Of a DNA stretch of 64,000 nucleotides, positions 52,126-56,332 are shown piece by piece. The notes under the pieces were generated by a model. It was not told the DNA's origin. It did no database searches and saw nothing but the letters and a program-made list of their open reading frames with translations. The first letter of the stretch is position 1, and each line of letters opens with the position of its first letter. Source of the DNA: Bacteroidales bacterium (GTDB lineage Bacteria; Bacteroidota; Bacteroidia; Bacteroidales; F082); the NCBI GenBank assembly GCA_030683155.1, contig JAUXMV010000045.1, positions 62,001 through 126,000 on the forward strand, given 5' to 3'. The position numbers and the translations under genes are program-made.

Positions 52126-52157
52126 TTGCAATGTATTTATAAAACATCCTACTTTTG
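52126..52157 (+). promoter_or_regulatory. Promoter of the phenylalanine/tyrosine operon
   Basis: TTG (52126-52128) and TACTTTTG (52150-52157), 21 bases apart, match the Bacteroidota promoter consensus. Transcription would start near 52163-52165, about 15 bases before the leader-peptide ATG. Confidence 0.65.
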
Positions 52158-52177
52158 GCGGCGTAAATCATATAACA

Positions 52178-52252
52178 ATGAACACTCAAACCTCCTTTTA
52201 TTATTATTTCTTTTTTGGAAGCGTAAGCAAAGGGGGAGGATCGTGTGTTTAG
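52178..52252 (+). CDS. Phe/Tyr-rich leader peptide of the pheA operon
   Basis: A 24-codon reading frame starting ATG AAC ACT and ending TAG encodes seven consecutive aromatic codons, FYYYFFF, at 52196-52216 (four Phe, three Tyr). It lies between a consensus promoter and a strong terminator upstream of four genes of Phe/Tyr synthesis. This is the classical arrangement of a ribosome-sensed leader peptide: shortage of charged Phe- or Tyr-tRNA would stall the ribosome on these codons. The peptide itself probably has no other role. The open frame is too short for normal gene finding. Confidence 0.85.
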   Translation: MNTQTSFYYYFFFGSVSKGGGSCV

Positions 52253-52293
52253 CTGACATGAAAAACACAAAAAGAAATTGCGAATCCTGCCCC
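52191..52293 (+). promoter_or_regulatory. Attenuator pairing elements (regions 1, 2 and 3)
   Basis: Region 1, CCTCC (52191-52195), can pair with GGAGG (52235-52239). Region 2, GGGGGAGGAT (52232-52241), can instead pair with region 3, ATCCTGCCCC (52284-52293), with nine of ten matches. Region 3 contains most of the 5' arm of the terminator. A ribosome stalled on the aromatic codons covers region 1 and frees region 2 to pair with region 3, which blocks the terminator. A ribosome that reaches the stop codon covers region 2 and lets the terminator form. Confidence 0.75.
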
Positions 52294-52312
52294 AAAGGCA
52301 GGATTTTTTTTT
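52283..52312 (+). terminator. Attenuator terminator before pheA
   Basis: A perfect 9-base-pair stem, AATCCTGCC (52283-52291) with GGCAGGATT (52297-52305), has a 5-base loop and nine Ts (52304-52312). It sits 18 bases before the pheA ATG, inside the operon leader rather than at an operon end. Confidence 0.88.
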
Positions 52313-52330
52313 GACATTATTTTTTCTAAA

Positions 52331-53221
52331 ATGAATGATATTATGATACAAGTTTTCATACAAGGATTTGAGGGTTCGAACCATGATCTGGCAGCACGTG
52401 AATATTTTGGACATCTTCCGATTAAAGTTTTGCCGTGCATGACTTTCAGAGAATTGTTCGATAAACTATCTGAAAGCCCTTCCATGTTTGGACTGGTTGC
52501 AATGGAAAATACTTTGGCCGGCAGCCTTTTGGCCAATTACAACCTTATGCGTAAAAGTGGTATGAGGATCCTAGGAGAACATAAAATGAAAATTTCGCAT
52601 CAGTTGCTTGCTTTGCCGGGACAAAATTTGAGTGATCTCAGTGAGGTACACTCGCATCCGATGGCTCTGGCTCAATGTGAAGATTTTCTTTTGAAACACC
52701 CTCATTTAAAGTTGATTGAAACTGAAGATACTGCATTAAGTGCTAAAATGATTCGAAAGGAGTCAAGAAAAAGAATTGCAGCCATTGCAAGTAGCCTCGC
52801 AGGACAATTATTTGAACTTGAAACACTTGCATCTGATATTGAATCCAATCCACATAATTTCACCAGATTTTTATTGGTTGGACATGCAGAGCAAACGCAT
52901 TCAGGATTGTTGCCTTTGATAGAAAACATTAACAAATCATCATTGGTTTTTTCCTTGCCTCACGAGTCGGGAAGTTTGTCAAGGGTGTTGAGTGTTTTAG
53001 CTTTTTATGGTGTGAGTCTTACAAAAATTCAATCTCTTCCTGTAATCGGAAAAGAATGGGAGTACCTTTTTTATATAGATCTTGGTTTTTCCGACTATCA
53101 CCGTTATCGGCAATCCCTTGATGCAATCCGACCGCTTTCGATAGGACTTGAAGTGTTGGGTGAATATGAAACCCACGAATCAAGAACAATGAATGCCATC
53201 CCTGCAAAAATTGCAATATGA
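52331..53221 (+). CDS. pheA: Prephenate dehydratase
   Basis: The 296-residue enzyme converts prephenate to phenylpyruvate. It has the periplasmic-binding-like catalytic domain with IQGFEGSNHDLAA at the start, VAMENTLAGSL, SHPMALAQCEDFL and the catalytic Thr in NFTRFLLVG (TRF). A C-terminal ACT domain (about 200-285) carries HESGSLSRVLSVLAFYGVSLTKIQS, which normally binds Phe for feedback control; the usual ESRP motif reads QSLP here, so inhibition may differ. An ATG four codons in is possible. It is first in a four-gene operon behind the attenuator. Confidence 0.93.
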   Translation: MNDIMIQVFIQGFEGSNHDLAAREYFGHLPIKVLPCMTFRELFDKLSESPSMFGLVAMENTLAGSLLANYNLMRKSGMRILGEHKMKISHQLLALPGQNLSDLSEVHSHPMALAQCEDFLLKHPHLKLIETEDTALSAKMIRKESRKRIAAIASSLAGQLFELETLASDIESNPHNFTRFLLVGHAEQTHSGLLPLIENINKSSLVFSLPHESGSLSRVLSVLAFYGVSLTKIQSLPVIGKEWEYLFYIDLGFSDYHRYRQSLDAIRPLSIGLEVLGEYETHESRTMNAIPAKIAI

Positions 53222-54414
53222 GAAAAACTGACATAGAAAGGCCAAAGGTCATTTTGCCTGCAACGCGCATCGAATCGGTGAATGAGTATTACTTTTCTCA
53301 GAAACTACAGCAAATCAGTTCAATGCGATCTGAAGGAGTCGATGTAATCAATCTAGGAATTGGAAGTCCCGATCTTCCACCGGCACCTGAGGTGATAGCA
53401 GCTTTACAAACATCGGCTATAATTCCGGAACATCACGGATACCAAAGTTACAGGGGAACCGATGCTTTGCGAAATGCATACGCCGACTGGTATAAACACT
53501 ATTTTGAAGTTGATTTGAATCCATCAAATGAAATTATTCCATTGATGGGCTCTAAAGAAGGCATCATGCATATTTCTATGGCTTTTTTGAATCCGGGTGA
53601 TAAAGTACTGATTCCAGATCCCGGCTATCCAACATATGCTGCTGCAGCAAGGCTTACAGGTGCTGAACCCATTTTTTATGACTTGAATGAAGACACAGGA
53701 TGGATTCCGGATTTGTTTCAAATAGAGAAAAATGGACTTAATGGCGTCAAAATGATGTGGGTCAATTATCCTCAGATGCCTTCAGGTGCTGTTTGCAACA
53801 AAGACTTTTTTGAAGGATTAATCACTTTCGGAAAGCAGCATAATATTTTAATCTGTAATGACAATCCCTATGCATTTATTCTTAACGATCATCCTATGAG
53901 TCTTTTATCTGTGAAAGGCAGCAAGGACATCGCAATTGAATTGAACTCATTGAGCAAGTCACATAATATGGCAGGCTGGCGTATGGGCATGGCGGCAACA
54001 AATGCGGTTTTTGCCAACCATATATTAAAGGTGAAAAGCAACATGGATTCAGGAATGTTCAAGCCGCTACAGGATGCTGCTGTTGTGGCGCTATCGCTGG
54101 GTTCAGACTGGTATAAAAGCGTGAATAAAATTTATGATGAGCGCAGAAGCATTGTCCGGGAAATATTTGATACTTTGAAATGCAGTTACAGCAGAAACCA
54201 GGCTGGCTTGTTTGTTTGGGCAAAAATTCCTGATGATTATGCTGATGCTGAAGCACTTTCGGAAATAATTTTAGAGGAAAGCGGAGTGTTTTTTACGCCT
54301 GGCCATGTTTTTGGAGAGAATGGCAAAATGTATCTCCGAAGTTCATTGTGTGCCCCCGAAAGCAGAATTAAAGAAGCTTTGCTAAGACTCAAAAATATAA
54401 ACTTCAAATCCTAA
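53218..54414 (+). CDS. PLP-dependent class I/II aminotransferase
   Basis: The 398-residue fold-type I aminotransferase has NLGIGSPDLPP near the start, the phosphate/PLP segment NDNPYAFIL, and the Schiff-base Lys in SLSKSHNMAGWRMGM. It overlaps pheA by four bases (ATGA). Its place between prephenate dehydratase and DAHP synthase suggests that it makes Phe and Tyr from phenylpyruvate and 4-hydroxyphenylpyruvate. The sequence alone resembles LL-diaminopimelate or aspartate aminotransferases, so specificity is inferred from context. Confidence 0.88.
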   Translation: MRKTDIERPKVILPATRIESVNEYYFSQKLQQISSMRSEGVDVINLGIGSPDLPPAPEVIAALQTSAIIPEHHGYQSYRGTDALRNAYADWYKHYFEVDLNPSNEIIPLMGSKEGIMHISMAFLNPGDKVLIPDPGYPTYAAAARLTGAEPIFYDLNEDTGWIPDLFQIEKNGLNGVKMMWVNYPQMPSGAVCNKDFFEGLITFGKQHNILICNDNPYAFILNDHPMSLLSVKGSKDIAIELNSLSKSHNMAGWRMGMAATNAVFANHILKVKSNMDSGMFKPLQDAAVVALSLGSDWYKSVNKIYDERRSIVREIFDTLKCSYSRNQAGLFVWAKIPDDYADAEALSEIILEESGVFFTPGHVFGENGKMYLRSSLCAPESRIKEALLRLKNINFKS

Positions 54415-54431
54415 CTACAAAAACTATTAAA

Positions 54432-55544
54432 ATGAAAAATTTAAATATTGAACCTTTTTCATTTCCTGGCTGTGATATGAGCCGCCCGGTCATTATCGCA
54501 GGACCTTGCAGCGCTGAAACTGAAGAACAAACGCTGGCTACTGCAAAGGAACTCTCAGCATTGGGGGTAAAAATTTTCAGAGCAGGACTTTGGAAGCCCC
54601 GCACACGCCCGGGAGCGTTTGAAGGTGTTGGCGTTGAGGGTTTGCCCTGGATGCAAAAGGTAAAAAAGGAAACAGGAATGTATGTCGGCACTGAAGTTGC
54701 AACTGCACAGCATGTTTTTGAGGCTTTAAAATACGGAATCGATTTCGTTTGGATTGGTGCGCGCACAACAGCAAACCCATTTGCTGTGCAGGAAATTGCC
54801 GATGCATTGCGTGGTGCAAGGATACCTGTAATGGTAAAAAATCCAGTAAATCCTGACCTGGAATTGTGGATTGGTGCATTAGAGCGTATCAATCGGGCTG
54901 GGATAACACAAATAGCAGCCATTCACCGTGGCTTCAGTACCTATGCCAAAAGTGAGTTTCGCAACCACCCGCAATGGCTTATTCCCATTGAACTTCACCG
55001 CCGTTTGCCTGAACTTCCTATTCTGACCGATCCCAGTCATATTGCAGGAAACAGAACCCTTCTGGCTCAGATTTGTCAACAGGCTATGGACATAAACTTC
55101 AATGGCTTGATTGTTGAAACGCATTTCAGGCCAGATGAAGCATGGAGCGATGCACAGCAACAAATTACCCCTCAGCAGCTCAGGAAGTTGATTGATTCGC
55201 TTAAATTTCGCAAGCATGATATAGAAAATATTCCCCGTACGGTTCTGGATGACTTACGTATGCATATTGATGATGTTGATAATCAGCTTATTGAGCTTTT
55301 GAGTGAACGTATGAAAATTTCAAAAGCAATAGGTCTGTATAAACTTGAAAACAACATTACTATTCTCCAATCTCGACGATACAATGAAATTATAAGAGAC
55401 AGAAACCTTAAAGCTGTTCAAAAAGGTCTTGGAGGTGAGTTTGTCGATAAGATTTTCGAGACAATACATGAAGAATCGGTTTTGTTGCAAAGTAAGGTGA
55501 TGAACAGCAAACTCAATAATTCATCAACCAATAAAAAATCATAA
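54432..55544 (+). CDS. DAHP synthase fused to chorismate mutase
   Basis: The 370-residue bifunctional protein has an N-terminal 3-deoxy-7-phosphoheptulonate synthase barrel (about 1-260) of the KDO8PS-like type Ib/AroAII group. Its motifs are IIAGPCSAETEEQ, FRAGLWKPRTRPG and LTDPSHIAGNR. A C-terminal type II (AroQ) chorismate mutase domain (about 280-360) reads DDLRMHIDDVDNQLIELLSERMKISKAIGLYK, interrupted here only for length. It catalyses the first step of the shikimate pathway and the branch to prephenate; the mutase domain may also be the allosteric sensor for prephenate. It supplies substrate for the pheA and tyrA products beside it. Confidence 0.92.
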   Translation: MKNLNIEPFSFPGCDMSRPVIIAGPCSAETEEQTLATAKELSALGVKIFRAGLWKPRTRPGAFEGVGVEGLPWMQKVKKETGMYVGTEVATAQHVFEALKYGIDFVWIGARTTANPFAVQEIADALRGARIPVMVKNPVNPDLELWIGALERINRAGITQIAAIHRGFSTYAKSEFRNHPQWLIPIELHRRLPELPILTDPSHIAGNRTLLAQICQQAMDINFNGLIVETHFRPDEAWSDAQQQITPQQLRKLIDSLKFRKHDIENIPRTVLDDLRMHIDDVDNQLIELLSERMKISKAIGLYKLENNITILQSRRYNEIIRDRNLKAVQKGLGGEFVDKIFETIHEESVLLQSKVMNSKLNNSSTNKKS

Positions 55545-55546
55545 GT

Positions 55547-56332
55547 ATGAAAATTGCTATTCTGGGCGCTGGAAAAATGGGCACATGGCTCTGCGATGCA
55601 CTTTGTCTTCAGCATGAAGTTGCTGTTTATGACCCTGAAGTAAAACGATTGAGTTATGTTTTCAATACAATTCGTATGATGAAACTTGAGGAGATAGCTG
55701 ATTTTGAACCGGATATATTAATTAACTCTGCAAATCTGCAGCATACCCGAAAAGCATTTGAAGAAGCAATGCCATTTTTGTCGAAGGATTGTATTTTAGC
55801 AGATATTGCGTCTGTTAAAAACGGCCTGCAGCATTTTTACTTAAATTCTGGACGAAGATTTGTTTCGGTTCATCCTATGTTTGGGCCAACTTTTGCAAGT
55901 TTGAATGATCTGAGTCGTCATCATGCCGTCATCATAAAAGAATCGGATGAAGAAGGGAAGGCTTTTTTCAGGAGCTTTTTTGGTCCTCTTGGCCTGCGTT
56001 TGCATGATTATAGTTTTGAAGAACATGACCAGACAATCGCTTACTCCCTGTCGGTGCCTTTTGCCTCAACACTGGTTTTTGGCGCCTGTATGAAACATCA
56101 GGAAGCGCCCGGCACAACCTTCGAAAAGCATCTTACTATTGCACACGGATTGCTTTCGGAAGATGACCATCTGCTCAGTGAGATTCTTTTCAATCCCTAT
56201 ACTTTGCCGCAACTGGAAAATATTTGTGATGCGCTGGAGCATTTGAAAAATCTGATAAAAGTAAAAGACAGCGATGGAATGCGGTCATTTTTGGCTAAAG
56301 TCAGGGAAGGTTTGGTTGACTCCGGATCATAG
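55547..56332 (+). CDS. tyrA: Prephenate dehydrogenase
   Basis: The 261-residue NAD(P)-dependent enzyme turns prephenate into 4-hydroxyphenylpyruvate. It starts with a Rossmann motif GAGKMGTWL and carries ADIASVKNGLQ and SVHPMFGPTFA, the substrate-binding His region. No ACT domain is attached. It starts two bases after the upstream stop and is the last gene of the aromatic operon. With the dehydratase it completes both the Phe and Tyr branches in one transcript, which fits a leader peptide that senses both amino acids. Confidence 0.9.
   Translation: MKIAILGAGKMGTWLCDALCLQHEVAVYDPEVKRLSYVFNTIRMMKLEEIADFEPDILINSANLQHTRKAFEEAMPFLSKDCILADIASVKNGLQHFYLNSGRRFVSVHPMFGPTFASLNDLSRHHAVIIKESDEEGKAFFRSFFGPLGLRLHDYSFEEHDQTIAYSLSVPFASTLVFGACMKHQEAPGTTFEKHLTIAHGLLSEDDHLLSEILFNPYTLPQLENICDALEHLKNLIKVKDSDGMRSFLAKVREGLVDSGS

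Follow-up and report, generated by a model that had tools for sequence, protein, structure and literature searches.

Can one short leader switch an operon that serves two amino acids, and can the codons within it tell which amino acids these are? This question is raised by a locus in the window (the whole stretch of DNA that was analysed, 64,000 nt), in which pheA, an aminotransferase gene, a DAHP synthase-chorismate mutase gene and tyrA lie nearly end to end behind a leader containing a run of Phe and Tyr codons. An earlier note, made from the sequence alone, had interpreted this leader as an attenuator following the trp/phe logic and sensing both amino acids. The genes of the operon are as follows:

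52331..53221, + strand, pheA, prephenate dehydratase (by Pfam: PDT, weak ACT)
53218..54414, + strand, class I/II aminotransferase, with a 4-nt overlap with the end of pheA
54432..55544, + strand, DAHP synthase fused to type II chorismate mutase
55547..56332, + strand, tyrA, prephenate dehydrogenase (Pfam PDH_N)

As conservation in the pheA alignment sets in at about codon 5-7, the gene may in fact start at the ATG at 52343. The tyrA product is short (261 aa), and its matches to prephenate dehydrogenase models are weak, lying under the curated NCBIfam cut-offs. Upstream of pheA, the following elements were identified, with the basis of each in brackets:

52126..52157, + strand, promoter with TTG (-33) at 52126-52128 and TACTTTTG (-7) at 52150-52157 (sequence)
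52178..52252, + strand, leader ORF MNTQTSFYYYFFFGSVSKGGGSCV, 24 codons, from ATG 52178 to stop codon TAG 52250-52252 (sequence and relatives)
52191..52198, + strand, region 1, CCTCCTTT, able to pair with region 2 (minimum-free-energy fold)
52196..52216, + strand, regulatory codons F Y Y Y F F F (TTT TAT TAT TAT TTC TTT TTT) (sequence)
52232..52241, + strand, region 2, GGGGGAGGAT, 5' strand of the antiterminator, within the leader tail (sequence; shuffle, swap and spacing tests)
52284..52293, + strand, region 3, ATCCTGCCCC, common to antiterminator and terminator (sequence; shuffle and swap tests)
52283..52312, + strand, intrinsic terminator with the 3:4 stem 52283-52291/52297-52305 and a T run at 52304-52312 (terminator scan)

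The consensus promoter described earlier is correctly placed and belongs to the Bacteroidota type (TTG plus TAnnTTTG), with TACTTTTG at 52150-52157 fitting the -7 consensus TAnnTTTG and transcription expected to start a few bases past 52157. Across the leaders collected from relatives, 134 of 191 have TAnnTTTG no more than 120 nt before the leader ATG, compared with 15.3 expected from shuffles. The sigma-70 consensus is unsuited to this phylum, and TAnnTTTG was preferred to its hits at 52179 and 52311. The 24-codon leader with FYYYFFF at 52196-52216 was likewise read in the sequence exactly to the base. A seven-codon aromatic run is matched only once in the 64,000-nt window (0.03 expected), and the 4.7-Mb genome contains six such runs, the leader's own included; none of the other five genomic runs lies in a leader before aromatic genes.

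Within the window, the terminator has a CCAAA loop and nine Ts, with 18 nt between the T run and the pheA ATG at 52331, as the note had it, and the scan found it to be the sole terminator-like site within 1.2 kb. Both alternative pairings that had been reported are present where they had been placed: CCTCC of region 1 (52191-52195) pairs with GGAGG (52235-52239), and region 2 pairs with region 3 at nine of ten positions (52232-52241 with 52284-52293). The 1:2, 2:3 and 3:4 pairings are mutually exclusive. The leader RNA folds better than its dinucleotide shuffles (z -2.85), the 1:2 pairing being part of that fold, while the 2:3 pairing exceeds shuffled sequences at p 0.01, and region 2 fits its own terminator arm better than 99% of the arms of other loci (rank 1%). 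Region 1, ACCTCCTTT (52190-52198), looks like the anti-Shine-Dalgarno end of 16S rRNA, and region 2, AAGGGGGAGG (52230-52239), like a strong Shine-Dalgarno sequence; the same is seen in the nearest relative (L011), and this likeness is probably a by-product of the 1:2 pairing.

For comparison with relatives, pheA was searched in the family, the order and the phylum. Operon-sized regions were collected from about 145 genomes, in most cases a single genome for each genus, and the set was later extended, so that a uniform re-analysis covered 236 distinct pheA upstream regions. An operon was considered joint when pheA adjoined the aminotransferase, DAHP synthase-chorismate mutase or tyrA gene. Among these 236 regions, the leader is present in 176 of about 183 joint operons, and three of the approximately seven joint operons lacking it have DAHP synthase fused to pheA. 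At four loci (L082, L183, L195 and L203), a single frame of about 700 codons apparently joins DAHP synthase-chorismate mutase to prephenate dehydratase; a leader is present at L195, and the other three show no clear one. Conservation of the aromatic run and of the alternative pairings in relatives had been set as the test on which the attenuator could fail, and the outcome strongly favors it. As for the suggestion that the attenuator is notable in its phylum, the element itself stands, but not its standing as an isolated case, because it is the norm for the Phe/Tyr operon in the class and a putative attenuator had been listed for this operon in Bacteroides thetaiotaomicron (PMC1173090).

The competing structures were assessed over the whole set of leaders, 188 of 192 of which have a usable terminator. 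In these 188 leaders, the 2:3 pairing is stronger than in shuffles (median z -2.96; p<=0.05 in 148), compared with a z of -0.43 for a control pairing of the terminator 3' arm with the piece following the run, and region 2 favors the terminator 5' arm of its own locus above the arms of other loci (median rank 8%). The terminator stem covaries, with 99 of 99 pair cells kept and 3 compensatory pairs in 11 relatives. As bulges displace region 2 from one species to another, a formal count of covariation in the 2:3 helix (MAFFT alignment) was dropped in favor of the shuffle and swap tests. Across the set, the 1:2 pairing is weak (median z -0.68), with the distribution shifted overall. Spacing provides a further line of evidence: region 2 begins 8.4 +/- 3.6 nt past the last aromatic codon, compared with 17.6 +/- 13.5 nt in shuffles, and its distance to the stop codon is far more variable (sd 10.0). 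Given the generally known size of the ribosome footprint, a ribosome positioned at the stop codon would cover 5 nt or more of region 2 in 161 of 188 leaders. A ribosome stalled on the run would thus just clear region 2 and one at the stop codon would cover it, in agreement with the geometry envisaged earlier, in which stalling hides region 1 and termination of translation hides region 2.

Judged by its parts, pairings, spacing and conservation, the trp/phe-type logic is well supported, and the leader in the window very probably controls transcription by ribosome-mediated attenuation, as in E. coli pheA and trp, serving both Phe and Tyr. In the proposed mechanism, polymerase would start just past 52157, and a ribosome would follow on the 24-codon leader. 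When charged tRNA-Phe and tRNA-Tyr are both ample, the ribosome would reach the stop codon at 52250-52252 and cover region 2, so that region 3 would pair with region 4 and transcription would terminate before pheA. If either tRNA were uncharged, the ribosome would stall within 52196-52216, covering region 1 and leaving region 2 free to capture region 3, with predicted read-through into pheA and the aminotransferase, DAHP synthase-chorismate mutase and tyrA genes. Termination and its relief on starvation are what these sequence features predict. Through its mixed codons, a single switch would serve both end products; it probably senses Tyr as well as Phe, and starvation for Tyr alone would presumably suffice for relief.

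The identity of the leader codons bears directly on this last point, as codon content tracks operon content among the sequences compared. Phe and Tyr codons are both present in all 176 joint-operon runs, which contain 871 F, 649 Y and 46 W in total, mostly with three to five Tyr codons per run. Outside joint operons, a stand-alone pheA mostly has no leader at all. Sixteen such loci in four families do have one (L106, L127, L137, L241-L246, L249, L274, L275 and L280-L283; L274 and L280, with weak runs, were included manually on the strength of leaders in their relatives), and their runs are Phe-only or nearly so, for example FFFFFF, FRFFFFFAFFF and FFTHFFFFF. In total, these 16 runs hold 97 F, 4 Y and 0 W, and 12 of them have no Tyr; for some of these loci, close relatives have joint operons with Phe+Tyr leaders. 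The Tyr share of F+Y is 4% in stand-alone and 43% in joint leaders (Fisher p 5e-16, a value that ignores relatedness). Operon state changes four times on the pheA tree, and of three independent contrasts on well-supported branches about 2.9 agree with expectation (sign test p 0.25, a test that cannot reach significance with only three contrasts). In genomes with a split operon, the aminotransferase-aroF-tyrA or tyrA-aroF operon left behind is often preceded by a Phe+Tyr leader of its own (L305-L308, L310, L314, L317-L321 and L324), with runs such as FAYFYYYFYF, FGYYAFYYYFFY and FFFFYF, as would be expected if the codons sense the downstream products.

The most serious alternative accepts the same attenuator and regards it as a Phe-only sensor in practice, the Tyr codons having little regulatory effect. 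It has a precedent in AroR of Corynebacterium glutamicum, whose Phe-Tyr-Phe leader reportedly responds to Phe and not to Tyr (PMC11802643), so that Tyr codons alone are no proof of Tyr sensing. Against this reading, Tyr codons are universal in the joint leaders and largely lost when pheA leaves tyrA/aroF, and Phe and Tyr are interleaved beyond chance, with 643 transitions compared with 538 +/- 15 in 134 distinct runs. The first of these observations lends indirect support to the joint sensing postulated earlier, and a Phe-only sensor appears unlikely. Control could also be exerted by the nascent leader peptide (arrest by the free amino acid, as in TnaC) or by Rho, without tRNA-dependent stalling, and the recurring K/G/R/S composition of the leader tail might be read in this way. 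That composition can be attributed to the G-rich region 2, and outside the aromatic run the leader peptide shows no conservation from one family to another. Together with the intrinsic terminator, its T run and the support obtained for the competing pairing, this leaves the second alternative highly improbable. The idea that an ordinary short ORF and a constitutive terminator merely happen to precede pheA, to which the chance occurrence of five other aromatic-rich runs in the same genome might lend some color, is contradicted by the 176 joint operons in which the arrangement is conserved, as well as by the competing pairings, the spacing and the covariation, and has a negligible chance of being right.

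Dual sensing by tRNA-dependent stalling, the preferred reading, may extend to a further amino acid. A Trp codon stands in or at the edge of the run in 46 of 176 joint-operon leaders and in 0 of 16 stand-alone pheA leaders. Inside the runs, Trp occurs 30 times, next to 45 occurrences of Ser, 37 of Ala and 35 of Gly, a frequency above its rarity in proteins that is only suggestive of selection; Trp is a possible third input. Tentatively, and with somewhat less than even confidence, the aromatic attenuator of the Bacteroidia could be seen as an either/or sensor of Phe and Tyr, with Trp added in about a quarter of cases, that is re-tuned as genes leave or join the operon. If true, the leader could be read as a record of the products of its operon. 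The contrast between joint (Phe+Tyr) and stand-alone pheA (Phe) leaders offers a simple test of multi-amino-acid sensing, and leader codons provide a means of predicting operon products.

To place the switch among known systems, the whole 64,000-nt window was searched against Rfam, with no match at the gathering score, Phe_leader included. A search of mostly open-access literature found no account of a phylum-wide mixed leader or of a change in its codons with operon content. A comparative paper by Vitreschak and others (2004) is said to have covered some attenuators of Bacteroidetes/Chlorobi. Most of what is known of leader-peptide attenuation comes from Proteobacteria and Actinobacteria, and a 2010 survey knew of none shown outside these two phyla before its own example from Firmicutes (PMC2965389). 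The switch described here was found, by sequence comparison, before the Phe/Tyr operon across most of the phylum. In this phylum, which makes little use of Shine-Dalgarno signals, the same logic appears to govern the operon throughout.

One of the closest known systems is E. coli pheL-pheA (a Phe leader family exists in Rfam), in which a short leader ORF likewise carries a run of regulatory codons, antiterminator and intrinsic terminator exclude each other, and prephenate dehydratase is the first gene. The E. coli leader, however, contains Phe codons only and precedes the CM-PDT gene alone (PMC11802643), whereas here a mixed Phe/Tyr run precedes a two-product operon. AroR of C. glutamicum shares a leader with Phe and Tyr codons, placed before a DAHP synthase operon, but it belongs to another phylum, has only Phe-Tyr-Phe and is reported to respond to Phe alone (PMC11802643). 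Within the phylum, short ORFs reminiscent of leader peptides have been described in 5' UTRs of B. thetaiotaomicron (PMC7366714), and a structured 5' element before pheA was described in Flavobacterium psychrophilum and relatives in 2021, together with clues for leader-peptide attenuation before amino-acid operons (PMC9723704); the main text of that study is not known to describe leader codons. Another precedent is Table 7 of a 2005 study, where a putative attenuator is listed before pheA > hisHb > aroA-aroQ > tyrA of B. thetaiotaomicron (PMC1173090). This is the same operon, in the same phylum, with a predicted attenuator, but the entry comes from a database screen and, as listed, carries no leader peptide, codons or comparative test. 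As attenuators before this operon had already been listed or indicated in 2005 and 2021, it is the match between leader codons and operon content that may be the new part.
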